Assembly: GCA_029448655.1 (NCBI GenBank)
Contig: JACCLO010000004.1
Location: 2,914,001 to 2,978,000 of the forward strand
Source: Wolfiporia cocos
Lineage: Eukaryota > Basidiomycota > Agaricomycetes > Polyporales > Phaeolaceae
Length of the DNA: 64,000 bases
Direction of reading: 5' to 3'
Position 1 is the first letter of the stretch. Each line of letters opens with the position of its first letter. The position numbers were made by a program, and so were the translations under genes. The notes beneath the pieces are model-generated. The model searched no databases and was not told the origin of the DNA. It was given only the letters and a program-made list of their open reading frames with translations. This document shows positions 42,800-64,000 of this stretch, one piece after another.

Positions 42800-44176
42800 G
42801 GTTTTCGTCGAGGATTAGGCCTTAACCCGACAGATAGTCGACGTCCACAGCTTTTCAAGAGCGCGTAAGCTCTACCAGCTGTTGCGTGAAACCCACAGGA
42901 CCACTTGCCCGTGCGGCGGCTTGGGCACCTTCCGAAATTGTCGACAGGCCTGTGCGCTCCGACAATCCGTTCACGTGCAAGACTGTGGGCGCTTGCATGT
43001 CCAGGTACGCGATCACCGCGATCCCCCCCGCGATCGCTGTACACCGCCACTTGGGTGTTCGCTACCGACTCGCTTCGCCATCGCTGCGGCTACAGTGCGC
43101 ATCTAGCGTGCACTGCTCTGCGGTAGCATAGCGTCGCGAATACCGAATACCCCGAGCGCATACCCTCACGGTCTGATGACGGATCCTACTGGTCGACAAT
43201 CGGCAGTCTTCCCCATGCACGGCCGGGGCTGCCAGGCGCGTATGTCGGCATCAGTCAAGACCCGATGCCACGCAGTCAAATAGCGATGTAATTACCTGGT
43301 GTCGTAGGTGACAGTACTCCACACCCTTCTGTGCCCGTGCGTAGCCCAAGAACATCTCTGTCTGCATAATGATTGTTCATCTTTTCCTTCTAGCTATATT
43401 GTGGTCCCGAGTTCATCCACGCCATGAATTATGAATTATGTCGGCGCTCACGACTTCTTGCATCTGCTCTCCTCGGTGGCTTTTCCTGAACGGGAGCTTC
43501 GTTGGGACACAATCGCGATCGGTCCCTTTGTCTTCGTCCCTTCCGGGGACAACTGTCAGGACATGCGGACCTCAGCGCGCAGACACTGACTCCAACTATA
43601 GCCCCACCCGAATGCGTGAAGCATATATCACAGAACCAGTATGTTCTCATCCTCCCGCCTCTGCCTTGTCAAACTGTCGTCGGCCGCCCCATCACGCCGT
43701 GTTGATCTTCCGTGCCTCATGCCAAGGTTTGGCTGGCCATCGGCGGCCGCGACTGTGTCATTAGGTAGTCCTTAGACCGTCTTAATGCGCGTGCCCATCC
43801 GTGAGATGTGTCCTTGATGCCATCGCGAAACATTTTCCAAGTATGGGCTCAAACATTCTGCACCAACGTATTAGCGGAAGCGAGGATCCATCCCACTGGG
43901 AAATACATCAGCGTGGGGCCCTACCGATGGCTTATGACTTTGTCTCGGAAGCGGAAGGTGCCCGTACCGGCCGCGATGAATTTCACAGATTACTAAATAG
44001 GACGAAGAGTATTTGAGTTTAAAAGCCAGGACATGCGCTCCCGGCCCAGCATCGCACTGTAGCCGCAATAACCTCGCTCACTCATAACCGTTCGTTCAAA
44101 TTTGTGAGTCCCACCCCCCCTACAGCCCTCTTCGTTCAGTTTACGCTCGCTGCCAGAATATCTCTTCATAGTCAAA
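42800..44176. other. Gene-poor spacer
   Basis: Divergent region between PET100 and the large unknown gene. Short plus-strand frames near 42.88-43.13 and 43.44-43.76 kb overlap in several phases and show no domain. A short direct repeat (GAATTAT twice) lies near 43424-43438. No RNA gene recognised. Confidence 0.4.
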
Positions 44177-47100
44177 ATGTGCGTTGGCGAAAATTGCGCG
44201 CCTCAGGCGGTACATTACATGAATGCACAATTGGCCGCGCTTCATGACAATGCCGTTGCTTGTCTCAAGGACCACGATCCCGCTCACAAGCCTCAGGATC
44301 AGACCCGTAAGTTTGTAGGATCTCGAGCTGTCTGTTCTCTGATTGCTTCGTCTAGGATACTCCCATGCCCTCGCCGAATATGCGTACATTGATCCGCACT
44401 CCAAGGGCCATCACAAGATGTTCCAGGCCAGTTTCGACAAGCCTCAGCTAGAATTCATCTGCAATCACGATGCAGTCCTCCGTCTGAGAATCAAAAAGGG
44501 TTATTACCGTCTTGACTATACCAAAGCATCGTCGGTTACTTACTCCGACAAGTACGTCTGCTTTCTTGAAATCGCTCGATTCATGTTCATGTTTCTTCAG
44601 GGACCGTCTCCAAATGTTCTCCGATGCGGAGCTAGCATATCGCATTCCTTTTGACCAGCGCAGCATTACCGGCAAAGACTCAAAGATCGGCAATCACGCG
44701 AATCTCATCCAGTTGATCGTCCTCAACCTCACCAGTGCGTTCGCTTCCATTTGCAACAGCTCATCCGCTCATGCACCCCACAGAGGCGCAGCTCATTTCT
44801 GCCGAGCCTGCCGTCGTCATCGGCCGCGAGGCGCTCACGTTCTACCTCTCGCACTACCTCTCCTTCCTCCAGCAGGCGGGAAACCACGTCCTCTTCTCGC
44901 TCCCGGACTTTGACGATGACCGCTACCGGCTCACCGTTGACTATTCGCTCATGGGAGCATACGTGCTCGCGATCGACGAGGTGTATGGGATCGCAGTCGA
45001 CAAGATCAACGCGTACCTATCCTCTGTGTGGCTGAAGGCGTCCATGCTCGCGGGCGGGCTTACCGGCCAGGCGTCCGACTGGAAGACGACGTGCATCGCC
45101 GAGTTCCGCAGCACGTGGACGCTCGACGCCTCCGCGGAGACGCACTTCCACCTCAAGCTCGGCGCGCCGCGCATCAAGCCGATCTGCTCGCGCGAGGCCG
45201 TGCTGTACTTCACTGTGGACGAGGTGACGTTCTACGACAATGCAGACTTTGAAACGTACGGTACTTCGTATGTCGTTGCAGTGCGATTGGGCTGACAATA
45301 GTGTGATGTAGTGCTCCCAGTCAACGTTACACGGGTTGGGAGATCGCGCTCCTAGTTGACCTCATTCATGAGGTGGAAGCCGATGGACAGATCACCCGCT
45401 GCAAGATTGACATGACTAGTACGCCATTTCCATATATCTTTTAGACCGAGGCTCAAGCCGTTGTTGCCTCTAGCTGCGCGCCTCTACCACCAGTTCTGCA
45501 CCTTCACCGGGCTCGACGAACACGATGAGATCGCACTGACGTTCTGCAGCCGCCTCGTCGAGTTCTTCTCCGGAGAATACCTCGACATCCTCGAGACCGT
45601 GGACTTCCATGTCGTCTATTTCTACGACACGCGCTGGCCCGTGGTGACTACCATTGGCAGCGAGTCTGAGATCGAGATCGACAGCGTGATCGATGTCGAG
45701 ACCTTCGACGAGAAGGAATCCTGGTCGCTCACGACCTCGGACACGCGCAGCACGCACATCGCCGAGTGGAAGGAGACCATCACGCGCTGCGACATGCTCG
45801 GCTTCGACCAGATCACCGCCGTATCGCAGTCGACGATCAACGTGCACTACAAGACGCTGCGGAATCTGGCGCTCGAGTCGAACGGCGCGGAGTACTTCTC
45901 TGCGCTGTCGAGCTGGACGTACGACCAGTACTTCCACTCGACCTTTAGGTCACTCGCAGTCCGCCTGCTCAGCAACGGACGTGCGATCGTGTGGGTCCGC
46001 ATGAAGCACGGTTGGCTGAAGACGCTCAGGAACTGGCTGCCGTGGAGCGAGTACGTGTCTGCTCGTGTTCCATCATCATGACAGCGTCTGATCTGTATCT
46101 ACTCATTAGGAGCGAGAAGTACCACTTCGAGGGCTGGCACCTTGCCTTCGAGGTCGAGATCAAGAAGTGCACGCATTCAAGCCTCGATGTTTCCGAGACG
46201 TTCTTGAACAAGTACAAAGACTCTTTGATCTGGAAGGAACACGGTGACCGTTCGGATCGCATCCTCGAGCACATCTACCTTGACCTGCGCAGTAAGTCTG
46301 CATTCGTGCGTTCGCCGCGACACCGAGATTTGATAATTCTTCATAGACGCTGAATTCTTGCACGAGTTTTCTGGCTTCGACGGCCTGTTCCACGCACACG
46401 ACGTTCGCCCGATCGACAAGGTCCAAGCTGTTGTGCACTATCTCAAGAACCACTACTTCCCGCACCTCGCGAGCCAGGGCGTGAACATCCTGCACACCGT
46501 CCCTGTCTATAAGGTTGGCCTCGCGCTCCCGTCCTACGCGCTCACCAGCATCGCCTGGCACGTATACTCAAAGGCTGAGATTACGCGTCACACCTGGTCG
46601 CAGGTCTCCGCCGTGGCGGAGCCAGCGATCGTGATCGTCGGCGTAACCGGCTCGCGCACGCTCCCAGCGACGCGCCTCGAGTACTCCGCCAACTGGGTCG
46701 TCCGCGTGTCCAAGACCATTTCGTACGGCACGGTCTCCATCGCGCGCTCTGTCTTTATGGAGGAGCGCCTGCTCAAGCTCCTCTCGCGCGTCAACTCGCT
46801 CACCACGATCATCCCCCTGTTCTCGGGCATTGACAACGGCGTGTGGAAGCTGGAGCTGACCACCTGGGCCGAGCACGACTGGCGCAAGGGGAGCGCGTGC
46901 AACTGGAAACCTCTTGCGGAGGCGAACGGCGTGAAGAAGTACATCTGGCAGCACCGCGATGGCTGGAGCTACGAGCACGAGGGCACTGGTGATGTAGCCA
47001 ACGGAACGTACTCGGTATCTTGTGAGTGCCTTCCTGCATCTTAATCGATCCAAAGGCTGACTTTGCAAAGGCCTGACCCGTAACTTCATCGAGCTTCCCA

Positions 47101-47968
47101 ATGCTAGCAGGCAGAGGTCTCTTGACATCAAGATCTGGGGTGAGGTCGAACTTGAGATGTCATTCAGCTCGGGCAACCAGCGCGGAAGGTAGCTTCATAC
47201 CTCCAGACCTCATGATTCAGTTGCTTACGATGACCACAGCGCGAAATCGACTGCTCGGTGGAATGCTCTCGTCAGCCTGCGCTCTGACGTCGGTGGCCTC
47301 AAGGTGAATGTCTCGGGCTCCCTCGTGCCCACCATCGACCGGACCGCCATTGTCGGCGAGTCTCCTGCTGCCAAGTTTACCGACCCGTACACACACCTGA
47401 AGGCGCACCTACCCGGCACCGTCGACCTCGAGGCGGTCGTGCAGGAGCTCCGCACCTTCGAGGGCGTCTGGCACTATGGCTACATCGGCCTGCAGGCCTA
47501 CTGCCTCGCGAACCCTGTCTTCGACCTCAAGGGCGACGTCATGTTCGAGCTCCGCCCGCAGGCGCTGCAGGTCGCGCAGAGCGCGGCTGCGGCGCGTCGC
47601 CAGGTCAGCACCAGTAGCTCGCGCGTGAGGCCCGCCCGCACGAACATCTCACGCGGCTCATCTTGTGAGTGTCATCAGGTACTCCCACTTGCGCGGATCA
47701 CTAACATTGTGTCGTTTCAGTCTTTGCGAAGGCCAAGGAAATTGTGCAGACTGCCTTGCACAGCCAGACCGAGTCGCACAGCGTTGTCGCGAATGGCCAC
47801 AACGGCTTCGCAAACGGGCATGGAAATGGTTACACGAACGGCCACACTGCCAACGGCGGGGTATACTCTTCGACAACGATGACATACGGCGCCAAGACGG
47901 AGGAAACCGAAATCGAGGAAGAGGAGGACCAGTTGTCCTTTCTTGTGCCTGAGGTTACAATGGCGTAG
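44177..47968 (+). CDS. Large protein of unknown function
   Basis: Multi-exon gene of about 1,050-1,150 residues that I do not recognise. The start is MCVGENCAPQAVHYMNAQLA. The body has repeated beta-strand-like sections (LEFICNHDAVLRLRIKKGYY, PICSREAVLYFTVDEVTFYD, KWTCIAEF-like TTCIAEFRSTWTLDASAET) suggesting two or more related beta-rich domains in its first part. There is no signal peptide or membrane helix. A later exon reads WKLELTTWAEHDWRKGSACN. The C-terminal tail is low complexity: NGHNGFANGHGNGYTNGHT, then an acidic EEEED stretch. About eight introns of 50-70 bases. Frames are long and strongly GC3-biased, so expression as protein is likely; the role is unknown. Confidence 0.75.
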
Positions 47969-48313: not shown

Positions 48314-48385
48314 GGTCGCGTGGCGAAATGGCATCGCGTCTGACTACGAATCAGGAGATTGCAGGTTCGAGACCTGCCGCGGTCA
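48314..48385 (+). tRNA. tRNA-Arg (anticodon ACG)
   Basis: Folds as a 72-base cloverleaf without intron. The acceptor stem GGTCGCG pairs with CGCGGTC (two G-T wobbles), the D arm has GCG/CGC, the anticodon stem TCTGA/TCAGG closes the loop CTACGAA with ACG at the anticodon, and the T arm is GCAGG-TTCGAGA-CCTGC. The B box GGTTCGAGACC is intact. The discriminator base is A. CCA is not encoded, as usual in eukaryotes. Confidence 0.93.
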
Positions 48386-48697
48386 TCCTTTTTGCGTTCC
48401 TTGATGCTGATCTCCATTCCCGAGCTGAGCGTGAGGGAATTTTTTGGGTAATCTGTAGGATCGGAATCATGTAAGCGCCCGTGGTTGATCGTACGGTACG
48501 ATCGACCGCACGCCCGTCGTGCGGAAATTCTGGCTGCATTCGCATCCTGATGGCAGTTTTGAGCAGTGACACTAGTGCTGTTTCTGCACGTGGTACTGAA
48601 TATCCGATCTGTATTCCATGAGTCTGTCAAGTATACAGTATGTCTTCTACCCTCTCCAGCTTTCCAAGCTTTGTGCAGCATCCTCTCTCCTTACCAG
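48386..48697. other. Spacer between tRNA and GAD 3'-end fragment
   Basis: No gene, repeat or RNA feature recognised beyond the tRNA terminator. Confidence 0.4.
48389..48393 (+). terminator. Pol III terminator of tRNA-Arg
   Basis: Run of five T three bases after the tRNA 3' end. Confidence 0.8.
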
Positions 48698-48799
48698 CAT
48701 AACCCTGCTCGGGCTTGCAACAGTCTCATTTGGAGACTCTGCTGTCAATACGGCGGCCAGGTGGTGTACGTGGTTTTTGTTAGTTCAGCATTGCTTGGC
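48698..48799 (+). repeat. Direct repeat copy A: fragment of glutamate decarboxylase 3' end
   Basis: About 100 bases closely matching 54696-54794 in the same orientation. Shared landmarks include CATAACCCTGCTCGGGCTT, GCTGTCAAT, GCCAGGTGG and TTCAGCATTGCTTGGC. In copy B this is the last coding bases and 3' flank of glutamate decarboxylase read on the minus strand. Copy A stands alone and abuts the truncated POLD2 relic. Exact identity was not computed. Confidence 0.85.
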
Positions 48800-48805
48800 G
48801 CGCTG

Positions 48806-50159
48806 GCGTTCCCGTTATGATGGATGAATCGCTGTCGAAGTACAGCTGGCACCAGAACGTGTCTGGCGCTGTCGGCGCAATATGGCGCCAGCGCAGCGAG
48901 GACGATGCAGTCGAAAGCCGAGGGGAGGGCGGCGTGGGGAGGTATTTGTACATGTCGTCGAGCGCCTGGCCGGAGGAGACGAGGAGCGTGCGCGTTGGAG
49001 CGTGGGACCCAAGAGAAGAGGCGGAGGGTGTAGCTTTGGCCTTTTACTTGCCTTTAAGTTGGCGGAGGGTGATGGAGGGGGGATGGAGGGGGTGGGTTGC
49101 ACGCAGATGTAGGTGGGGACAACGCAGGGTGCGGTGAAAAGGTTGGTGGGTCGTGTCCGTAGCGCCATGTCTGCATTCAGGACTGTTGTCAGATGTCGTA
49201 CGTGAGGATTGAGAAATATCAAATACCGATTTCTTGTTTTTGTTGTCGCCATATTCTCATCGTTTCCATTTGACATGGCGGAAGCAGAAAGCGAATTGCC
49301 TGCAATAACTGGGCGGGAGATGCGCGCCGCGCCTGCCTGGTTACTCACGCCTCCTGCTTCGCCGGTGAGATACTCAACCAGCATTTGTATCTGTGGGTCC
49401 TCTGATGAAGGAGCGCCAACGTCAAGACCGGACGCGGATTGCGGCCCCATATCACACTCGAGAACGAGTCAAGACGCGTCACGCTGGTAGGTGAGCGCCT
49501 CAAGTCAGACAGCCGGTGACCGGAGTGGTCATAGCCGCGTCGGGAATGGAGACGAGTGAAGATGAACTCGAGGTAATTGATGGTAGTTTTGCGGGAAATG
49601 TCAACCGGTGAGCACATTTTCGGGCGCGGGGAAGGCGCAGGGATCGAACGCTGCTAAGCACGTGTATACAGAGTGTATGGGATACAGACGGGAGAGACGT
49701 ACGTCGCACGCAATTCCTCAAGGACATTCGGTTTGAGGGGCATGTCGATATAGACTGTGCCAACGATGTAACACAACTCGCCTTTCACGATCTCTAGCAT
49801 GCAGCGAGCGAAGAGTGGGTCACCTTCATGGTGGTCCGGCATATAATCGCGTGGTAAGACATTGAAGCTGGTGCGCTCCACGCGATCTGACTATACCACG
49901 TACCCGCGACATCTTTCCATCTCTGTTTCGCTCGCGCTCGCATAAATTCCCGAATTCTCTGCAGCCTGACAAAGTATATGCTCTAATGCTGGTACGACCG
50001 GCTCTTTCAGCATCACGTAAAGCCTGGCATATTTTCTAGTTTGTCTGCGAGAGCTGTCGGTGGCCGGCGTAGGGGAGCAGTGGGAACGGTTTTATAAGAC
50101 GGGATCAACACTGTGCGAGGCGGTACCGTTGTGTTGTGTAGGCGTATATGATCAGCCAT
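48806..50159 (-). pseudogene. DNA polymerase delta small subunit (POLD2) pseudogene, left copy, internally inverted
   Basis: Relic of the B subunit of DNA polymerase delta. On the minus strand the 5' part begins near MADHIRLHNTTVPPRT and ENMPGFT, then shifts frame before RWKDVAG, GDPLFARCMLEIVKGELCYI and VYIDMPLKPNVLEEL. The next part of the gene, 49449-49605, lies inverted on the plus strand. The 3' part then resumes on the minus strand with SASGLDVGAPSSEDPQIQML, NPHVRHLTTVLNADM and, in another frame, HIAPTAPDTFWCQLYFDSD. Homology ends at about 48806, where a copy of the glutamate decarboxylase 3' end begins; the usual POLD2 C-terminus is missing. Frameshift, inversion and truncation together rule out a normal product. 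Confidence 0.88.
49449..49605 (+). repeat. Inverted internal segment of the POLD2 pseudogene
   Basis: On the plus strand this piece reads LENESRRVTLVGERLKSDS and, after a one-base shift, PVTGVVIAASGMETSEDELE, which is the middle of POLD2. Both flanks carry POLD2 on the minus strand. Its first 50 bases match 63958-64000 of the right copy in direct orientation. The breakpoint near 49605 lies right after the minus-strand sequence CTCACCGG. Confidence 0.85.
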
Positions 50160-53100
50160 GTCACTACAGAGAGTTTGAGCTCAAGGGCGATGGGAGCACG
50201 CGTGAAGGAAAGAAGACGCGATCGCGAGACGCGTCGGTTCGCGTTGGGTGACATATGTGATCGTGATCGACGGCGTAACTCTTTCTCCAGCGCCAGCTAG
50301 CTCGTCCCCGCTCCCGCCATGTCGTCCGGCTCGGACTCTCATTAGCATCTCCTGTGTCCTTGCCGCTGAGCTGGCAAACTAAATACACCTTGAAATCCTT
50401 TGGCTACTGAGTCGAGATAGCGCTAGCGGCCGAGAATGATCAACATTTCCAGTCACCTTAACTTCTACAGAATCCATCTGCTCTTCTTGTGAGTGTAGTT
50501 TAAGACATTTCAGATATACTGTATGCTGCATATACTCCTGGGGGTGGGTGACGGGGCCGAACACTCATTCTCATCAAATCGGAAAGGCTGCAATTTGAGA
50601 CTTCGTCGTGTGTTCCCTGCTGCGTGTCTCACGCTCAGAAGTCAGCGTTCAATATTGAATACTCACGCGCTGATCGTTGCAGCACATTGACCCCTCTGAT
50701 ATTGTCCGGCATCCTGTATGCAGACAATGGCGATCGACCGGTGGCATATATAGACAGTCTATATAATTGTGTCAGCGCAATGACAATGACCGGTCTTGCT
50801 ACCGTAGATCTCAGCGGCCTCACGCCATTCCAGCAAGCATTGCTATTCATACAGATGTGTTCGGGAAATATTGTGGGTTATTCTCCCGGATCTCTCTGCA
50901 GAGACTCTTTGTAACCAGGGAAATCTCTTTCCTCCCTACTATTAGGTCTTGGTGTCGTGGGTCATGGTCTACATTCGTCGGTATGTATAAGCAGCCATGA
51001 AACTAGAGTCATGCCCAATTCTTCGAACAGGCGTTACCTTGCACAGCAATTCAAGCAGGTCGTCCAATTGGAGCTCGGCGGGGAGACCCCAGGTGAAGAT
51101 ATACGCTTCGCTCAACCTAGAGCAAACTCGACATCCTGGTGGAAAAAGCGCGGCAGCCAATTTCTTTGGCATCACACACATGTCGAACAGGATCTTGCCG
51201 GAGACAGCCGCCCTTCGACTAGCGATGCAGTAGATGGACAGTCACAGCGCATTCGCCTTGAAATCCGCAGGGCGGCTGATGCACCAAGACTGATCAATCC
51301 GAGCGGTGACATCAGTGAAGCGCATATGAATTCCTCTAGCGCTCATCATGTTAGGGATACCTCGCCTCATGGAATTGAGAGGGCAGCTGCTTTACAAATT
51401 TCACCTGAAGACATCTCCATTGAGGCTTCTAATGCCGAGGGTTCCACCGAGCCGAGCACCTTAGCGGCCGAAGAGGATGTGTGCGACCATCGGCCTAAGT
51501 TACCAGAAGATCACGCATATACGACACACGAGAAGTACATAGCTGATATTTACTATTTGTGAGACAAAACCTGATCGGTGCTGGCGTAGACTAAAAGCTT
51601 CGGATAATGTACCTTCTTCTGCGGCAACTCGGCCAAATGCACCAGGTAATCTTAATTACTACCTTCCACTTGAGCAACAAACTGACCTCGTTACATTCGC
51701 CGAACAACGTACAGCGGGCAACGGTCTCTCTATGCCAAGGATACCGACAATTGAGTTCATTGAAGCACCTCGTTCGCCTCGTCAGTTTCAGCATGCAGAC
51801 CAAATCAAGCCCCGCCCAACAACGCGGACCGATGCCGAGCGTGGGCTGACCCAAGACCAAAGTACGTGGTAGTGTATGCGTTATGATACTTCGCGAACGA
51901 TAAATCCTTAAAGGGTCCACGCGTCGACCGACTTTGTCCTTGCCTCGCAGTGTCGGATCAAGCCGAATCATTCGTCCGACGACTCATGCTATACACGCCG
52001 ACTTCGGAGGGTTCCCGATGCCCCATCGCTTACTATCTAGCCTGTTCCATCGATGCTTCCCGAAGATCGAACGCAAGCTAACGCGCACATTGACCATTCC
52101 ACGGACAGAGACGATTACTTCTCGTTATGCATCGCAGTCAGCTGGGGCACGGCCAGTGCCATACATCAGCTTCGAGGCAGTCGTAGGCCGTAACTCATCG
52201 TTCAAAGATCTCACGGAAGAACAGATGGAGGAACTTGGAGGTGTAGAATATCGTGCACTCACTGCACTGCTCTGGATTGTGGGTGGAGTGAGTACTAATT
52301 ACTAATTATCAAAATGGAACGCAAGCGAGCTGGCTGCAGTATCATATCGCAGTGCAGCTGCTGGCTTTCGCTGCAATCGCGCCGTACATGTCTATTCGCC
52401 GATGGAGTGACGACTTGAAGCCTCCCGTTCTGCACAAAGACATTTCTCCCGTTTGGTATGTCCACTCACTAGGATCATGCACTGTGTCAACCTGTTATAT
52501 AGGTTTTCAGCCTTCCAAGTTGTGTCAGCATATACGAATACCGGGTTCTCTCTTGAGGACACGTCCATGGTGCCTTTCCAAGAAGCATATCCCACATTAT
52601 TCCTCATGGTTCTTCTCATATTAGCTGGAAATACCGCTTTTGTGAGTCGCTCGCCACACTCTGTCCGAAGCCACTGCTGACGTAGAGCTTTTCTCCAGCC
52701 AATCTTGTGAGTGAATGTTTGCATGGTGTGTGGCGCGAGATCTGATGTTCCTCGCGCATCCAGCCTCAGATTGACCATGTATGTTTGCTGAAATCTCTGT
52801 CGTCTCGCTACTCACATTTTATAAGATGGATGCTCAAAATACTCCTGAAACGACGGCGACGAGCCAATGAGACCCTTCAATTTCTTCTCGATCACCCAAG
52901 ACGATGTTTCATTTACTTGTTCCCATCCCATCATACATGGATTTTAGCCACGATTTTGTTCATGCTGAAGTACGTCCTTATTATTAACTTTACCTACGAA
53001 ACCTAATACATCCTTGAGCAGTGGCTCTGACTGGTTCTTTTTCCTGATACTTGATCTGGGGAACCCTGCGATTACGTCCATCCCGGTCGGTGTACGTGTC

Positions 53101-54682
53101 GCCGTTGGACTTTTGCAGGCGACCGCAGTCCGCACTGCGGGTTTTACGGCAGTCTCTCTAGCAACCATAGCCCCCGCGGTCAAGTATGTTGATCTTATTT
53201 CGAGGGTACCGCAGACCAGCTGATGTGCTCTGCAGGGCGTTATATGTGATCATGATGTATGTCAGTGCTTGTGAGTATGAAAGTGTGCGTGCACAAGGTA
53301 TCCTGCTCATAGAAGAGGTAAGATCCCATAGCCATGAGGTGTGTCGTCAACGCAATCGCACTCCGCGCTATGTTGTGACTGAAGTCGAGTAAGTGTGCGC
53401 TCGACGAACGTGTATGAGAAGAAGTCTCTCGGCATTTTTGATGACGAACACGAACCTGACAGCGACCCCGACCCCAAAGAGAGTCGCATTGCAGTTTGGA
53501 GCGAGTACCTCAGCTTGCACATGCGCAAGCAGCTATCCTTTGGTGCATAAACATCTGCTGAGGTTGGGTTCAACGGAGATTGACGCGTATATTGATCCAG
53601 ATATGTGGTGGTTGGCGACCGCGCTGTTCCTGATTTGCATAATAGAGGTACTTCATTGCAAAACAAGCTGATACGGACCAGATATTGATGGCTTATCAGC
53701 GCGATGGCCTCGACGATGCAGAAAATGCAACCTGGTTCAACATCTTCAGCATTCGTGAGCGATCTCCTTTTGGACATCTACATTCTGCTAACGCCCTGCT
53801 GCTACAGTATTTGAGTTGGTTGCCGCGTATGGGACAGTCGGCCTCAGCCTTGGCATTCCATATGTGAGTACTCCTGCCCCAAGCTAGCTCGTGTACGCTC
53901 TTCACGGCGTGTCATCCGCAGGCCAACTATTCCTTCTCCGGCGCGCTTAAGCCGCTTTCCAAACTCATCATCTGCGTGGTCATGCTTCGTGGACGACATC
54001 GTGGACTTCCCGTCGCCATCGATCGCGCGGTGATGCTGTCTCCCGAATTCGACAAAGTGCTGCAGGAGCACTCGTCAGCTAGCGACGTAGGCAGAGGCGA
54101 CAACCTCGCCACACCAATCCGCACGTCTGCGCTGCGTGAGGACGGTACGAAGCAAGCAGAAAGTCCACGTCTCGATGGACTACGTCAGCGTCCATTGCGT
54201 GGAATTCCCGAGCAGAATCAGTTGAAGGATGACAGTGGGGAGTATACATAAACGGGTCACGGTCACTTTGATTCCGAACGCCTGCACTAGCGCCGAGAAA
54301 TATCTGAACGATGTTCTCACCTTCCGACACGGCTGCATACAGTTTTTCTTTTGCATAACTCTACATGGTGGCATTCTCGAGCTCATATACACGAACGATC
54401 TGATCTACCGATCTCCAGATACACCCTACACTTGAACGTTTGAACAGTATAGTCGAACAATGAAACTTGCTTCCGCTACCATGGCATGTGCGTGCTTCCT
54501 CAACGTTGCAACAGGAAGCAATAGGTCGACGTTGTCATGACCGGGTTTTTGGCAAGAATCGAGCAGTATTTGCATGAACGCTCTTGGACCGCATGATCCT
54601 GTGATATTTGTACATTCATCGATTACAGTGATAGTTGTACACTTGTCCATCATGAATCGCCTGCACTATACTCGTACAGTAC
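49606..54682 (+). repeat. Left arm of large inverted repeat (POLD2 5' part + TRK)
   Basis: Mirrors 58502-63953. Starting from the outer end each arm holds the POLD2 5' part, a short divergent promoter, a TRK gene and about 430 bases of 3' flank. The inner end is marked by a sequence around GTACACTTGTCCATCATGAA and CTGCACTATACTCGTACAG, whose reverse complement starts the right arm. Homology is interrupted by indels, most clearly between POLD2 and TRK, where the right arm is about 400 bases longer. Identity was judged by eye only. Confidence 0.85.
50436..54251 (+). CDS. TRK-type potassium transporter, left copy
   Basis: Plasma-membrane K+ uptake protein of the fungal TRK/HKT superfamily, with four membrane-pore-membrane units. 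The start MINISSHLNFYRIHLLFF continues across an intron into TLTPLILSGILYADNG. Pore segments with their filter glycines: AMTMTGLATVDLSG, SAYTNTGFSLEDTSM, AVRTAGFTAVSLAT and AAYGTVGLSLGIPYANYSFS. A long hydrophilic loop lies between the first and second units (about 51.0-52.2 kb), as in yeast Trk1. Other marks are RALTALLWIVGG, HPRRCFIYLFPSHHTW and SVRSTNVYEKKSLGIFDDE. The C-tail ends DDSGEYT. About fifteen introns, all spliceable in frame by eye, including one with a TAAG acceptor before VRSTNV. It appears intact. Confidence 0.88.
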
Positions 54683-54695
54683 CCTTTCTTACTAA

Positions 54696-54794
54696 CATAA
54701 CCCTGCTCGGGCTTACAACGGTCTCATTGGAGACTGCTGTCAATGCAGCAGCCAGGTGGCGTACGAGGTTTTTGTTGGTTCAGCATTGCTTGGC
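54696..54794 (+). repeat. Direct repeat copy B: 3' end and flank of glutamate decarboxylase
   Basis: Matches 48698-48799. It overlaps the last coding bases and 3' flank of the decarboxylase (minus strand) and starts just beyond the inner end of the left inverted-repeat arm. Confidence 0.85.
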
Positions 54795-56720
54795 ATACGT
54801 GCCACTCGACTTGCTGCCTGAGCCCTCGTCGAGTTTACCGTGGTGTCCCTCGACCGTCTTCCGCTGGGAAAGCGCGTTCAAAGCATGCATCGGCGAATCG
54901 TCCTTTGCCAAGCTTTCCACCACCTCAATCTGTGATATCGTTAGCATCTTTGTTTTTCTAACGCAGAGTGGGCGTGCTCACAATGTCCGCAACAAGCCGG
55001 TCGATCATGACCGCAGTCAAGTTCTCGCGCACGACAACGCGCAGAATCTCGACGTCGCTCAGCGCAGGCGCAAGCTCGTAGTTCGGCACGATCCAGCCCT
55101 TTGCGCGGAGCAGTGTCTGAACCCAGCGCTGCTGCACGTCAGGGCTCTTCGCGCGGTAATCATCCGAGAAGCGGAATGCCACTACTGGGAGACCGGGGAC
55201 ATAGTTCTGTGCGGAGTTATGAGAAAACCTTGGCGATAGCGCGATCGAAAGCGACGCATCCATACCTCGATATTATCTTCGTCGAACCCAATCGCCTGCT
55301 TCGCGCCAGTGAGCACACCCTCCACCGGCCGGTGGATGTCGCTCAAGACAGTGAAAAAGCCGCTCTTCTCCAATGCCCGACTCAACAACCGCGCATTCTT
55401 CATATCCGCCAGCGCGACCGCGCGGTACCCCTCGAAGCCGAGGTGCACAAAGTTGAAGTATTGCGCGATGATCGGGTGCGCGGGGCGCGAGAAGTTGAGC
55501 GAGAACGAGTACTCGACCGAGCCGAGGTAGTGCAGCTCGAAGATGAGGTCCTTGGGCAGGAGGTCCTTCGAGCGCCACACGACCCAGCCGACGCCGACGT
55601 ACGAGAGCCCGAACTTGTGCCCGGACGTGTTGATCGAGACGACGCGCGGGATGCGGAAGTCCCACACGTGCTTCGGCGTCGCGAACGGCGCGACGAATCC
55701 GCCCGACGCGCCGTCGACGTGGATTGGTACGGAGTGGCCCGTCTGCGCCTCGTATTCGTCGAGCAGTGCCGCCATCTCTGCCACGGGCTCATAGTGGCCG
55801 GTATAGGTGCCTGCATACAATGTAAGTCCGAGGTCCCTCTCCGTGACAAATGTGCGTCACGAACTTCCAAGGATGACATATACGCCGATAGTGTTCTCAT
55901 CGACGTACTCCATCGCCTTCTTAGGATCGAGACGGTACTTGCTCTCCTCAGAGATGGGGACGAGACGCGCCTCCACATCGAAATAGCGTGCAAACTTCTC
56001 GAGGGCGACCTGCGCGTTCGCGCCCATGACGATGTTCGGACCCGGCTCGTGTATCGACTTGCCCTGTGCCTTGCGCTTCTCCTGCCAGATGCGCTTCATC
56101 GCGAGCCCGCCAAGCTGAATAGCCTCAGACGAGCCAGTCGTCGCGGTGCCGATGGCCGAGTTCGCGTGCGGCGCGTGCCACACGTCCGCGAGAATCGACA
56201 CGCAGCGCGTGTGGATGACCTCTGGGCACGGTGTCAGACGTGAACAGCTGCGATGCGGGAAGGGGGGACGCACGCGTCATCGGGTACTCGTCCTGGTCGA
56301 TCAGGTTCTTGGAGATGTTCTCCATCATGAGCTGGTCGGCCTGCTTCGGCATCCATGTGTGCACGAAGGATGCGAGGTTGAGCGCAGGCGTGCCGTCGAG
56401 GGAGAGCTCGTCGTGGATGAGCTGGTACGTCGACTCCGCGTCCGTGCCCTGGGTAAAACATCAACTATCAGCGAAACCCGTGGCAGTGCATTGCAAATTG
56501 GCGGACCTTGGACGGCAAGCGGTATTTGGGGATGGGCTGGATGCCATAGCGGGCACCGTATGGGTGTGAGGCCTCGTGTGAGGTCGGGCTATGGACTTTC
56601 TTCTTCATGGAATGGTCCTGCCCCTCCTTGATGAGATTGTCGGCATTGACGTGCTGTTGGAGCTCAGTCAACCTGCTTGTCTATATTGCGAGAAAAGACA
56701 GATACCTTGGATAAGACCAT
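54780..56720 (-). CDS. Glutamate decarboxylase
   Basis: PLP enzyme converting glutamate to GABA and CO2 in the cytosol. The first exon is tiny (MVLSK); an intron with a TATAG acceptor joins it to [20 protein letters not shown]. Blocks follow: [60 protein letters not shown] and the cofactor lysine in [19 protein letters not shown] frame through the last visible exon would stop at 54958, but splicing GTGAGC to ATCACAG there adds [20 protein letters not shown] and the standard C-terminus ending GTYAKQC at 54780. About 540 residues, seemingly complete. Its 3' end lies in the repeat shared with 48.7 kb. Confidence 0.93.
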
Positions 56721-58501
56721 GGTGGCTGGTTTAACTGTCGCAGAGGCAGGGAAGTGATGTGAGTTGAGTAGGAGAGGAGGTCCTTATATGCGCCCGGGGC
56801 GGTAAAATAGATTGACAATAGGTATAGTGGCCGTCATGAACCTAATGACATCATTTCCCATGCCGATGCAGCTGTGATTCCTACACCGCAATGATGCTTG
56901 TTTATTTTTGTGCCCACCCTATATGTCAGCATACCCCTTCTCTCTCCAAGCCACGTTCGTGTTCAACGTTCATCTCCGGCGTGCTCTCGCCGCGTTCGAC
57001 AAGAATCCACGGTGAAGTTGTGCGCAGCGGAACGGAGAGCTGTCAGGCGTGTAGCTGCAGTGGCGGGTGGCGCGGAGACGCGTCATGTCACGTGTACGCG
57101 TTTCCGCCACGTGAGACCGGCGAACAGGAAATGTCTTGAATTTGTGTTCCAACTCCTGCTCCACCTGGATCTATCTTTGTAATGCGAACCAGAGTTGCCA
57201 GCGATGTGTGCCTATCCGTTGACAACTGCAAGGCTGCGGTCAATCACCGTTGCTATATCCTGGTGTGCGACCCACACTCAAATGCTCACGGTCGTGCGAG
57301 GCTAGGCTTCAACGCAATTGCACAGCCTTTGCGCCAGAAACGCGGGGCCACTAGCTGCGTAGAAGGGGCTTGTTTCCAACGTCGTCTTCACGGGCTCCAT
57401 ACAATCGAACTGCTCATGTGTTCATTCGATCCAGGGCTTATCCCCGCCCACAGAGCCTCGAGGCCAGGAAGACGCCTGGCGGAGGCAATTGAAAACATTA
57501 ACAGGTGCGCCTGGCCCCCCGCCGCCAGCTTGAACCTAGCGTACAAGACACGGTGCCTGCCTTTAAGACTTAAATGGCCACCTGCAACAAGTCAGCGTAC
57601 CTGATAGCTTGACAAGGGTAAGTCATGGTACATCTGCAGACCTATGCGCGTTAACGCGAAAATACCAATACCCTCAGGTACAGAGCGCTGTTGCGCGGGA
57701 ACAGTTCTGTCTTCTAAAAGACGTGTTCTGATGCATCAACTTCTCGAACATGACGCACGGCCCTAGGTCTCGAGCCACAGAACCCGCTCATCCACCGGAC
57801 ATGGCTGTGGAGGCAGCTTGTGAACATTCAAAGTGGGACCTCACGGTTTCAGTATAAGCCTCATGTACGCCCCATATTCACAGACACGAGATGTTAGAGT
57901 TTTGGTGCAACTCCGGCCGCAGTGAATAGCGATGCTGGTGAATGTCTGGGACAGCGAACTTAGCTGAGTGCGCATTGCCGACACCGCTGACACCGGCACC
58001 GGATCCGCAAGCGGTGTATTAAACGCGGTCACCTGACCGCATCATGGGGCGTGCCACTCGCGATCGGTATCTTTTGACTCTCCTCGCCTGGCTGTCACTA
58101 CTGTGCACTTCGGAGTCAATCGCTGCGGTCTGCATTTCGTTGGTGGTACTTCAGACTACATAATCACTGTGCTATCACTATATATGCAATGATCCCCTCA
58201 CCATCAATCACGGTCTACAACTGTCTCAGGTATTGTCTACATGGTGCAACATCCACCGCGTCTGCAGGCCATCTTTAACAGGCTATTTACTCTGCATCTT
58301 ACGAAAATACGACGATATATCAATGTTTGCTTCGCTCAAACATTTTGAACTGTTGGGACACCACTGGAGCTGGGATTGCTTCCGGAAGGTTGGTGGTCTC
58401 GGTGGTCTGGTAGAGCTCCTTCCGTTTCACGGAGAGTCTTCGCGGATGCCACGGTCGTCGCATCCCCTATGTTAATTGCTGCTACGCCTGGTCAGAGTGC
58501 T
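56721..58501. other. Gene-free spacer right of glutamate decarboxylase
   Basis: Contains the decarboxylase promoter at its left end. Plus-strand frames near 57.18-57.60 and 58.23-58.48 kb have no recognisable domain. The stretch is not duplicated in the window as far as could be seen, so with the decarboxylase gene it forms the unique spacer of the inverted repeat. Confidence 0.45.
56782..56788 (-). promoter_or_regulatory. TATA-like box of glutamate decarboxylase
   Basis: TATAAGG on the minus strand, about 62 bases before the ATG at 56720. Confidence 0.45.
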
Positions 58502-58919
58502 GTACGAGTATAGCGCAGGCAGGTGGTGTTTCATGATGGACAAGTCTACAACTATCGCTGTAATGGATGAAGGTACAAAAATCGCAGGGTCATGCGGCCT
58601 ACGTCAGAGCGTTCATGAGATACCAGTATACTATCTGACTCGACGCTTCCCGAAAACCCGGTCACGATGACCTGCTTATTCCTGTTGCAATCAAGATAAT
58701 TCCGAGGCCAAGACGCAGTGCGCGTAGTATCCGGCTTTGGGGAGCACGCATATACTATGGGAACTGCAGGGTAACTACAAAGTTAGAATCTGGGGGCGTG
58801 AAGAGAACACTGTATGTAGCCATGTCAGGAGCAGGAGGTTGGAACATTGCCAGCCTATGTTTAATTTTTCGGCGCAAGTACAATCGCTCGGAAATCAGGT
58901 AACCGTGACTCGTTTATGT

Positions 58920-61900
58920 TTACTCCCCACTGTCATCCTCCGATTGATTTTTCTCAGGAATTCCACGTAATGGACGTTGACGCAGTCCATCGGGATGTGG
59001 ACCTTCCGTTTGCTTCTCACCGTCCTCGTGCAGCGCAGACGTGCGGATTGGTGTGGCGAGGTTGTCGCCTCTGCCTACGCCGCTCGTGGATAAGTGTTCC
59101 TGCGGCACTTTGTCGAATTCGGGCGACAACATCACCGCGCGATCGATGGCGACGGGAAGTCCACGATGTCGTCCACGAAGCATGACCACGCAGATGATGA
59201 GTTTGGAAAGCGGCTTAAGCGCGCCGGAGAAGGAATAGTTGGCCTGCGGATGACACGCCGTGAAGAGCGTACACGAGCTAGCTTGGGGCAGGAGTACTCA
59301 CATATGGAATGCCAAGGCTGAGGCCGACTGTCCCATACGCGGCAACCAGCTCAAATACTGTGGCAGCAGGGCGTTAGCAGAATGTAGATGTCCAAAAGGA
59401 GATCGCTCACGAATGCTGAAGATGTTGAACCAGGTTGCATTTTCTGCATCGTCGAGGCCATCGCGCTGATAAGCCATCAATATCTGGTCCGTATCAGCTT
59501 GTTTTGCAATGAAGTACCTCTATTATGCAAATCAGGAACAGCGCGGTCGCCAACCACCACATATCTGGATCAATATACGCGTCAATCTCCGTTGAACCCA
59601 ACCTCAGCAGATGGCTATGTACCAAAGGATAGCTGTTTACGCATGTGCCAGCTGAGGTACTCGCTCCAAACTGCGATGCGACTCTTTTCGGGGTCAGGGT
59701 CGTCATCAAAATTGTCTTCGTCATTATAAATGCCGAGCGACTTCTCCTCATACACGTTCGTCGAGCGTATACTTGCTCAACTTCAGTCACAACATAGCAC
59801 GGAGTTGCAGTTGCATTGACGACACACCTCATGGCTATGGGGACTTGCCTCATTTATGAGCCGGATACTTTGTGCACTAACACTTTCATACTCACAAGCA
59901 CTGACATACATCATGATCATGTATAATGTCCTGCAGAGCACATCAGCTGGTCCCCGGTATCTTCAGAAAAGATCGACATACTTGACCGCAGGGGCTACGG
60001 TTGCTGGAGAGGCTACAGAAAAACCCGCGCTACGGACTGCGGTCGCCTGCAAAAGTCCAACGGCGACACGTACACCGACCGGGATGGACGTAATCGCAGG
60101 GTTCCCCAGATCAAGTATCAGGAAGAAGAACCAGATAGAGCCGCTGCTCAAGGACGTATTAGGTTTCGTAAACAAAATCAACAATAAGGACGTACTTCAG
60201 AATGAACAAAATCGTGGCTAAGACCCATGTATGATGGGATGGAAACAAGTAAATGAAACATCGTCTTGGGTGATCGAGAAGAAATTGAAGGGTCTCATTG
60301 GCTCGTCGCCGTCGTTTCAGGAGTATTTTGAGCATCCATCTTATAAAATGTGAGTAGCGAGACGACAGAGATTTCAGCAAACATACATGGTCAATCTGAG
60401 GCTGGATGCGCGAGGAACATCAGATCTCGCGCCACACACCATGCAAACATTCACTCACAAGATTGGCTGGAGAAAAGCTCTACGTCAGCAGTGGCTTTGG
60501 ACAGAGTGTGGGGAGCGACTCACAAAAGCGGTATCTCCAGCTAATATGAGAAGAACCATGAGGAATAATGTGGGATATGCTTCTTGGAAAGGCACCATGG
60601 ACGTGTCCTCAAGAGAGAACCCGGTATTCGTATATGCTGACACAACTTGGAAGGCTGAAAACCTAGATAACAGGTTGATACAGTGCATGATCTTGATATG
60701 TGAACATACCAAGCGGGGGAGATGTTCCTGTGCAGGATGGGAGGCTTCAAGTCGTCACTCCACCGGCGAATAGACATGTACGGCGCAATTACAGCGAAAG
60801 CCAGTAGCTGCACTGCGATATGATACTGCAGCCAGCTCGCTTGCGTTCCATTTTGATCATTAGTAATTAGTACTCACTCCACCCACAATCCAGAGCAGTG
60901 CAGTGAGTGCACGATATTCCACACTCGCAAGTTCCTCCATCTGCTCTTCCGTCAGATCTTTGAACAATGAGTTACGGCCTACGACTGCCTCAAAGCTGAT
61001 GTATGGCACCGGCCGTGCCCCAGCTGACTTTGATGCATATTGAGAAGTAATCGTCTCTGTCCGTGGAATGGTCAACGTGCGCGTTAGCTTGCGTTCCATT
61101 CTCGGGAAGCATCGATGGAACAGGCTAGATAGTAAGCGATGGGGCATCGGGAACCCTCCGAAGTCGGCGTGTATAGCATGAGTCGGCGGACGAATGGTTC
61201 GGCTTGATCCAACACTGCGAGGCAAGGACAAAGTCGGCCTACGCAATGACCCTTTTGGGGGTTAACATTTGCTGAAGTATCATGACGCATACAAAGCACG
61301 TACTTTTGCCTTGGGTCAGCCCACGCTCGGCATCGATTGAGTGTGGCTTAATTTGGTCCGCAACCTGAACGTAACGGGGCGAACTCGGTGTCTCAACGAA
61401 CTCGATTGTATGTGTCCTTGGCATCAAGGGACTGCTGCCTGCTGAGCGTTCTTCGGCAAATTCAGATCATTGCTGAAATGGAAAGTAGTGACAAAATTAC
61501 CTCGTGCATTTGGCTGAGTTACCACAGAAGAAGGCATATAATCCGGAGTATATAGTCTAAGCCAACGCTGATCAGGTTTGTATCGTGGTCAATAAATCTC
61601 AGCTATGTACCTTTCGTGTGTCGTATATGCGTGATCATTTGGTAACTTAGGCTGATGGTCAGGTGCATCCTCTTCGGTTGCTAAGATATCTGGCTTGGTC
61701 AAACCCCTGGCATCAGAAGCCTCCGTGCCCTCGATGGAGTTGTTTTCAGGTACAATTTGTGAAGCAGGTGTCGTCTCATTTCCAGGGGGCGAAGTATCCC
61801 TAACATGATGATGAGCTCTAGAGGGGCTCAAATGCGCTTCACTGATGTCACCGCTCGGATTGATCAGTCTTGGTGTATCAGCCGCCCTGCGGATCTCAAG

Positions 61901-62760
61901 GCGAATGCGCTGTGACTGCCTATCTGCTGCATCGCTAGTCGAAGGATAGCTGTCCCCAGCAAGACTCTGTTCGACATGCGCACGATGCCACAGACTTTGA
62001 CTGCCGCGCTTTTTCCACCAGGATGTCGATTGTTCTGTAGGTTGAGGGAAGCGTATATCTTCACCTGGGGTCTTCCCGTCGAGCTCCAGCTGGTCGACCT
62101 GCTTGAATTGCTGTGCAACGTAACGCCTGTTCAAAGAATTAGGCATGATCTTAGTTTCATGGTTGCCAATACATACCGACGAATGTAGACCATGACCCAC
62201 GACACCAGGACCTTATTAAATGAATTCTCCTCAGTCGAACAGTCTCTGCATAGAACTTCGGGAGAATAACCCACGATATTGCCCAAACACATCTGTATGA
62301 ATAGCAATACTTGCTGGAACGGCGTGAGGCCGCTGAGGTCTACGGTAGCAAGACCAATCATTGTCATTGCGCTGATACAGATAAAGAGACTGTCTATATA
62401 TGCCACCGGTCGATCGCCATTGCTTGCATACAGGATGCCGGACAATATCAGAGGGGTCAATGTGCTGCAACGATCGGCGCATCAGTATTAAACAATTTGA
62501 TGATCACAGGAAGAAGCCAGAAGGAAGGAGCTGGCGCTGGAGTTCCATTGTACTCTCTTCCAGAAGATCATTATGTCTGCAGCATCTATACAGCTGGACT
62601 TCGCACACAGTCGGCGCTGGACAAACTACTGCTCGTATTCGGCCGCTGCCGACTGCTGAGCGCCAGCAGCATATGTGCGGCATAAATTATATTTTAAGGA
62701 CACTTACAAGAAGAGCAGATGGACTCTGTAGAAATTCAGGTTACCGGAGATGTTGATCAT
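58920..62760 (-). CDS. TRK-type potassium transporter, right copy
   Basis: Paralogue of the gene at 50436-54251 with the same exon layout. Start MINISGNLNFYRVHLLFF, then TPLILSGILYASNGDRPVAY. Pore segments are AMTMIGLATVDLSG (Ile replaces the Thr found in the left copy just before the first filter Gly), SAYTNTGFSLEDTSM, AVRSAGFSVASPAT and AAYGTVGLSLGIPY. The loop after SIRSTNVYEEKSLGIYNDE has extra acidic residues. The stop is two codons earlier than in the left copy because a TAT codon has become TAA, giving the end DDSGE. No internal stop or frameshift was seen when splicing by eye, so both copies may be functional. It is transcribed toward the decarboxylase. Confidence 0.87.
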
Positions 62761-63388
62761 CCTCAGCCACTAGTGTTGTCTTGACCCAGTAGCCAAAGGA
62801 TAGGGAAAGCACAAAGAGAGATATAAGAGTCGCTGATACAACTACTCCTATAGATCTACTGGACATATATAAGCCAAGGCCGAGGATACAAACCAGCTCA
62901 TAACAGTATATATACCTACTTTACAAGTGTCCTGCCTGCCAATAGTGGCATGGCTACTAGAAGCATCGTAACAAAATTAAAGGGCTTGGGCAAAGGTCTC
63001 CGCTGATGTGAGTGTAGATGTCGCAAATTGTGGGCTGAGTATCGACATGAAAAGCCAGACGTCAATGTGAAGTGAGATGTTCCTTTGGCTGAGGGGCTAA
63101 AGCGTCTCACGGCATGTCTGATCTTGGTCTGAGAGCTTATGCGTCGCCTCGTTCCGGCTTCAGGCTATGAATAGTCCCGTTGATCCTGGGATGAGCAGTC
63201 TGCCAGTTCTAGAGTCCGAGCGGGACGACACGAGGCTAGCTGCGCTTGAGAACGAGACACCAGACGCGTTTGTGGCGTCACGCCGTCAATCATGTATGTC
63301 ACGTGTCATTTACCACGCTCAACGACGCGAACTCTCGCGTCTTCCTTCCTTCACACTGGCGGATGCGGAACAAGCTCAATATAGTGAC
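62761..63388. other. Divergent region between right TRK and POLD2 relic
   Basis: About 630 bases versus about 280 in the left arm. The 50 bases next to the TRK start (sharing CCTTTGGCTACTG) and the part beyond about 63.26 kb match the left arm. The middle, about 62.8-63.2 kb, has no counterpart there and looks inserted on the right or lost on the left. Confidence 0.5.
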
Positions 63389-64000
63389 ATGGCCGCTCAA
63401 AGCTCAATGTACGCTCACACGACCCAACGGTCCGCCTCTCACGATGCTGATTTTGTCTTGTAGATCCGTTCCCACTGCTCCCCTAAGCCGGCCACAGACA
63501 ACTCTCCCAGACAAAGCAGAAAACACGCCGAACTTTATTAGGCTCCAAGAACCGGTCATATCGGCATCAGTATGCGAGCATACACTTTGTCCGGCTGCAG
63601 AGACTCCGGAAATTTGTGCAAGCGCGCGCGAAACAGAGATGGAAAGATGTCGCGGATACGTAGTATAGTCGTATCGCGTGGAACGCACCAGCTTCAATGT
63701 CTTACCGTGCGATTGATCGCTGGAATAATATGCAGGCGATCCGCCTTTCGTCCGTCGCATGCTAGAGATCGTGAAAGGCGAGCTGTGTTACATCATCGGC
63801 ACAGTCTACATCGACATGCTCCTCAAGCCGAATGTCCTCGAGGACATTGCGCGAGATGTACGTCTCTCCCTTCTGTATCCTTCACTTCATATACACATGC
63901 TTGGCAGCGTTCGATCCCTGCCCCTCCCCCACGCCCGAAAATATGCTCACCGGACGACATTATCGCGCTCGAGGACGAGTCAGGGCGCGTCACGCTAGTA
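63389..64000 (+). pseudogene. DNA polymerase delta small subunit (POLD2) relic, right copy, cut by window end
   Basis: 5' half of a POLD2 copy. The presumed start MAAQSSMYAHTTQRSASHDA meets TAG soon after, where the left copy stays open. Downstream, in shifting frames, come SVPTAPLSRPQTTLPDK, then RSYRHQYASIHFVRLQRLRK with VQARAKQRWKDVA, then GDPPFVRRMLEIVKGELCYI and VYIDMLLKPNVLEDIARD, an intron, and PDDIIALEDESGRVTLV at the window edge. The donor after DVAG is GTACGT in the left copy but ATACGT here, so normal splicing should fail. The later exons are well kept. It is probably a pseudogene, although sequence beyond 64000 is needed to be sure. Confidence 0.75.

Follow-up and report, generated by a model that had tools for sequence, protein, structure and literature searches.

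Inverted and tandem copies of a TRK potassium transporter unit beside a glutamate decarboxylase gene in Wolfiporia, with probable one-way gene conversion between the arms

Segmental duplications in tandem and inverted arrangement, with gene conversion between loci, form a general class of local rearrangement. In the flip/flop region of Saccharomyces chromosome XIV, conversion between inverted arms has been proposed to cause recurrent inversion (PMC9731477). Here we describe a locus with the same basic geometry, long inverted arms around a unique spacer, in a window of 64,000 nucleotides from Wolfiporia cocos (contig C34, positions 2914001-2978000, of an assembly of 64,431,438 bp in 76 contigs). 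The two arms, termed units A and B, each carry a gene for a predicted TRK potassium transporter together with a POLD2 remnant, and they enclose a gene for a predicted glutamate decarboxylase (GAD). We consider it highly probable that the locus arose by local duplication at the DNA level, in which an inverted insertion was followed by a tandem step and then by gene conversion from A to B, with no net inversion. As such, it is a clear example of ordinary local gene duplication. The features are collected in Table 1; positions above 64,000 continue the numbering of the window.

The inverted repeat is real. Self-BLASTN of the window returned five matches off the diagonal, of which four run antiparallel from one arm to the other: 50658-54301 with 62489-58864 (89.2% over 3663 bp), 49591-50149 with 63968-63407 (81.7%), 50395-50496 with 62801-62700 (85.3%) and 54566-54656 with 58623-58530 (84.2%). 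The sole direct match joins the two short repeats listed in Table 1. The spacer between the arms measures 3.8 kb and holds the intact GAD gene, and a genome search found it (54661-58529) a single time, a 110-bp repeat aside. Comparison of the window and the next 34 kb with themselves revealed a third unit, C, which extends from 64538 to about 71000 and stands in tandem behind B, the two being arranged head to tail. Searching the assembly with arm A yielded at least 11 matches, namely A itself, four pieces in B, four pieces in C and one each on contigs C4 and C3; all matches in the three units lie on C34, and those on C4 and C3 are weak.

An earlier note, made from the letters of the window alone, had described two facing arms of about 5 kb, with both TRK genes aimed at a unique 3.8-kb spacer holding GAD, and had proposed a dot-plot as a check. 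The antiparallel match is present in four pieces, which excludes the dot-plot result that the note had named as refuting, TRK-A lies on the plus and TRK-B on the minus strand, and the spacer is single with its gene intact, all of which bears that picture out. The extents drawn in the note need correction: the arms exist, but the second one stopped there only at the end of the window, and POLD2 of B runs on to 64534. Likewise, POLD2 remnants do exist in both arms, but the one in A is scrambled and reaches about 48800 rather than being a simple 5' fragment. Unit C was absent from the two-arm picture.

Within the TRK arms, two stretches stand out in which A and B are almost identical across exons and introns (Table 1). 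In the other three TRK segments, A-B identity is 87-90% and B-C identity 91-95%. Over A 50655-54300, 537 ungapped columns vary, with B=C in 261, A=B in 177, A=C in 90 and all three different in 9. The A=B columns are clustered: the best segment, 52512-53903, scores 53 and the longest run is 46, and shuffling the 528 two-state columns 5000 times never reached either value, the largest shuffled best-segment score being 16. Inside the tracts (codons 492-590 and 715-813), synonymous divergence (dS) is 0.036 for A-B, 0.199 for B-C and 0.190 for A-C, and outside them 0.216, 0.124 and 0.193, respectively. Since A-C dS is alike in and out of the tracts while B-C dS rises within them, A would be the donor and B the recipient of a non-reciprocal transfer. 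Among tract sites at which two outgroups agree, six carry the ancestral state in A and B and the derived state in C and in P0001, a TRK protein of W. cocos MD-104, and one shows the reverse. These patterns identify the tracts as gene conversion, apparently one-way from A to B. Both lie inside the TrkH domain match. An A-C exchange at 53287-53324 is not claimed, its best segment being matched in 1 and its longest run in 52 of 5000 shuffles.

Through the tracts, parts of both transporters stay alike while the TRK start region drifts. The region around the start of TRK-A (50395-50660) is only 62-63% like those of B and C (A-B 63%), B and C being 95% alike there, and this suggests diverged regulation of A. 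As predicted from the sequence, the duplications probably left the locus with three copies of a K+ transporter gene that differ in their regulation.

The arms, the direct repeats, the open genes and the conversion tracts can be read from the locus itself, and the ends of unit A bear on how they came about. The direct-repeat regions align locally with a score of 91.5, against at most 42 for 1983 pairs of 300-bp segments drawn at random from the window's first 48 kb, and their divergence (about 110 bp, 88% alike) falls in the range seen between A and B. A direct repeat flanking A points to insertion at the GAD 3' end with duplication of the target. Self-comparisons, which included no search aimed at transposable elements, showed no other repeat common to both ends of A, and the genes modelled in this unit are TRK and POLD2. 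The inner end of A extends ~20 bp past that of C, into sequence present beside B, and its POLD2 end matches C to about 71000, past the cut point of B. The template of A thus had both ends, which argues that A predates the tandem duplication of B and C; the order of dS values outside the tracts agrees with A being older than the B/C split. A retrocopy origin was rejected, as introns are retained in all three TRK copies.

From these observations we infer the order and direction of the events, and the mechanism of breakage. The ancestor would have carried GAD, the spacer and then a divergent TRK/POLD2 pair. A TRK-POLD2 copy without the POLD2 tail would have entered the locus in reverse orientation at the GAD 3' end, with ~110 bp of target duplicated in the process, and given rise to unit A. 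Tandem duplication of TRK and the first five of six POLD2 exons would then have produced B and C. Later, pairing of the A and B arms would have allowed non-allelic gene conversion to copy two stretches of A into B with no net inversion. GAD is likely a bystander, the site where the TRK-POLD2 copy landed.

Table 1 Features of the TRK-POLD2 locus in window coordinates.
Feature	Position	Strand	Description
Left direct-repeat copy, putative target duplication	48690..48799	+	matches GAD 3' end and downstream; 88% to right copy
Unit A	about 48800..54681	+	inverted TRK-POLD2 copy, left arm
POLD2 pseudogene of A	48800..50090	-	scattered pieces, last part of gene missing
TRK-A	50436..54251	+	20 exons, 876 aa, open; PF02386 E 2.1e-106
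Conversion tract 1	52487..52979	+	exons and introns; A-B 98.4%, B-C 87.7%
Conversion tract 2	53552..53903	+	exons and introns; A-B 99.4%, B-C 84.1%
Right direct-repeat copy	54688..54794	+	contains GAD stop codon and 3' flank
GAD	54780..56720	-	7 exons, 537 aa, open; stop codon 54780-54782
Unit B	58500..64000 in window, runs on to 64534	-	right arm
TRK-B	58920..62760	-	20 exons, 875 aa, open
POLD2 copy of B	63468..64000, on to about 64534 (B/C junction)	+	last exon missing

TRK-A was spliced by hand on GT/AG borders and its exons were carried to B and C via MAFFT, with exon 5 split at a further intron. TRK-C has 20 exons and 869 aa and is open throughout. As one continuous protein, TRK-A scores 356.8 bits against the TrkH Pfam profile (cut-off 27), covering positions 110-494 of 502; the Pfam scan was made with the whole of TRK-A only, and TRK-B and TRK-C align to it over their full length. 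All three are predicted TRK/TrkH K+ transporters. The ratio of nonsynonymous to synonymous substitution among the copies is 0.26-0.47 for whole genes and 0.41-0.71 for the long loop. Some loop residues differ, with TMIG in B, and FSNSG in C and the W. cocos protein versus YTNTG in A and B; we take these sites to lie near the selectivity-filter loops.

Among the matches listed, the nearest TRK protein is P0001, with identities of 83% (A), 91% (B) and 96% (C). More distant TRK loci include C3:1691193-1693122, C3:1704427-1704570 and C3:1737916-1739880, one of which is apparently a fragment. A FastTree tree of 126 sequences unites A, B, C and P0001 in a single clade (support 1.0) and groups the C4 TRK with other Polyporales TRKs (0.93). 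Three TRKs from C3 and C4 entered this tree, which served to place A-C, as rough query-anchored translations with intron columns and stops skipped; the C3:1704427 fragment was omitted.

The gene in the spacer is a predicted glutamate decarboxylase. It contains the pyridoxal-phosphate decarboxylase domain PF00282 (211.6 bits), the best 8 of 28 PDB sequences are all glutamate decarboxylases (best E 7.1e-126), and a genome search with it matched this locus only. Among the three units, C alone keeps an intact POLD2, an open model of 6 exons and 569 aa at 69310-71314, for which each of the 5 PDB matches is polymerase delta subunit 2 or the corresponding yeast protein. The 5' part of POLD2 in B is no longer in one frame; in A, a piece of ~150 bp (49450-49597) is inverted in place and ~160 bp are missing near 49118.

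Comparison with W. cocos MD-104 adds a time frame. At 80 sites outside the tracts, B, C and P0001 share a state that A lacks, which suggests that A is older than the species split. At 18 further sites C and P0001 agree against B, at 8 B and C agree against P0001 and at 4 B and P0001 agree against C. In MD-104, A and B would have been either lost or not annotated.

Several points weigh against the proposed history or parts of it. The shuffle test assumes exchangeable sites, and the best A=B segment also covers 52980-53551, a stretch of mixed columns in which B=C is commonest (42 B=C, 26 A=C, 22 A=B, 2 all different). A length of ~110 bp is long for the target duplication of a staggered break, which makes that mechanism a guess. 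Of the 18 sites at which C and P0001 agree, 12 also have A=B and may be inflated by conversion, so that an origin of B before the species split is less sure. Among the best 120 of 357 TRK matches, P0001 is the only MD-104 protein, and no MD-104 protein listed resembles A or B; when residues 1-448 of TRK-A served as the query (117 matches, proteins of ~246-784 aa), MD-104 contributed only P0145 (41%) and P0149 (50%), each over part of the query. TRK-C also ends 8 residues short of P0001. Polishing errors could in principle homogenise the tracts, the analysis having covered the assembled sequence, and a later paper suspects chromosome 1 of strain SS20 to be misassembled (PMC11354754), which would bear on the locus if C34 belongs to that chromosome.

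The last two points also bear on the idea that the inverted pair was created during assembly, by a head-to-head join of two haplotypes or paralogues, which could be weighed only indirectly. The aligned pieces of the arms differ by 11-18% and have different flanks, a third diverged copy lies in the same 5.1-Mb contig, and all three TRK frames are open. The assembly is, moreover, consistent with that of W. hoelen SS20, which its genome paper describes as homokaryotic, with PacBio coverage of about 330x (64.44 Mb, 78 contigs; PMC9503964). A haplotype artefact is unlikely, and we give the whole idea next to no weight. Much the same holds for a functional cluster in which GAD and TRK are kept together for acid or ion stress. 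The earlier note had linked production of gamma-aminobutyric acid (GABA) with K+ uptake in this way, and we found no support for the link: GAD looks like the landing place of the TRK-POLD2 copy. Adjacency and open frames are all that speaks for such a cluster, whereas the other TRK loci of the genome lie on C3 and C4, apart from the only GAD found, and the duplicated unit carries POLD2 and not GAD. One narrow query of the open-access literature found no published cluster of GAD with a potassium transporter, and open-access searches found nothing on potassium-related tandem duplication in Wolfiporia. The main text of the SS20 genome paper does not contain the words potassium, glutamate, GABA, inversion or gene conversion (PMC9503964). 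Nothing on GABA or acid stress can so far be read from the locus, and a cluster of this kind is extremely doubtful.

Inversion of the spacer deserves closer attention. The arms suit it, with exact A-B identity runs of 254, 251 and 219 bp and well-supported non-allelic conversion, and in yeast the same process has been proposed to yield inversions (PMC9731477). A crossover between the arms could flip GAD, and both orientations would segregate. However, this assembly shows no net flip. Of 93 variable columns in the inner arm (54301-54680), 68 are B=C, 8 A=C, 10 A=B and 7 all different, and the direct repeats around A have kept their direct order. Had a net inversion followed the B/C duplication, the right arm would carry an inner end of the A type and the right repeat would have moved; neither is seen. 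This argues that the spacer is in its original orientation here, although an even number of flips is possible. Furthermore, the arms are ~89% alike and most of their length is unhomogenised, the tracts appear one-way rather than reciprocal, and no flip was recorded in yeast over some 53,800 mitoses and 950 meioses (PMC9731477). The suggestion of the earlier note that arm recombination could turn GAD around thus stands in so far as the arms did recombine, leaving two conversion tracts, and not in the form of a flip. Orientation polymorphism is possible, but an inversion hotspot of the yeast type is unlikely. More speculative still is the idea that the spacer flips in natural Wolfiporia populations and that crossovers make TRK chimeras, coupling the context of GAD with TRK diversity. 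As a different route, a single inversion could have made both arms and turned GAD round, as an inversion whose breaks are staggered can end up with an inverted copy on either side. Such an event should leave the short repeats inverted relative to each other, one per breakpoint; here both flank arm A alone, in direct order. We set this route aside on the order of the repeats and judge it very improbable. Insertion of A followed by tandem duplication and conversion remains our preferred reading.

The TRK units differ from their surroundings (spacer and window 1-48000) in composition, with a GC content of 0.50 versus 0.56-0.57, a CpG observed/expected ratio of 0.94-1.01 versus 1.09-1.13 and a CA+TG index of 1.27-1.34 versus 1.14-1.17. 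Mild decay of the CpG type is possible on these figures. Decay resembling repeat-induced point mutation was rejected, as TA/AT in the arms (0.62-0.65) is close to the value for the spacer and window 1-48000 (0.63-0.65). Elsewhere in the window, a block of open reading frames at 44168-47557 has a direct-oriented paralogous block at C34:2995696-2999059, ~37 kb away and 70-80% alike in the matched pieces; for three of its open reading frames, Pfam gave no match at E 0.01. At 48314-48385, ~300 bp outside the left direct repeat, there is a tRNA-Arg (ACG) gene.

Among described systems, fungal TRK transporters (PF02386) share with the genes here the TrkH domain match, and W. cocos MD-104 supplies the closest TRK protein among those listed; the difference lies in three linked copies that form one clade with that protein, apart from the C4 gene. 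With segmental duplications that undergo interlocus conversion, the locus has in common retained introns, a truncated POLD2 carried along and mosaic tracts, but its inverted copy is flanked by a direct repeat of ~110 bp at the GAD 3' end. An open-access search judged by abstract found nothing on inverted repeats with paralog gene conversion in basidiomycetes. The locus offers a small, readable case in which an inverted gene copy would have formed and then exchanged sequence with its partner across a single-copy gene, and since the direct repeat records the original orientation, a flipped isolate would be recognisable at once. The Saccharomyces flip/flop region, the closest published case that we found, likewise has gene-bearing inverted arms of several kb around unique genes, with conversion; there the arms are nearly identical and separated by 24 kb, and both orientations are found in the wild (PMC9731477). 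In Wolfiporia, homogenisation is confined to two tracts outside which the arms are ~89% alike, the 3.8-kb spacer holds one gene, a third unit follows in tandem and one orientation is known. The Wolfiporia locus resembles the flip/flop region as far as conversion is concerned, in one assembly that shows no net flip.

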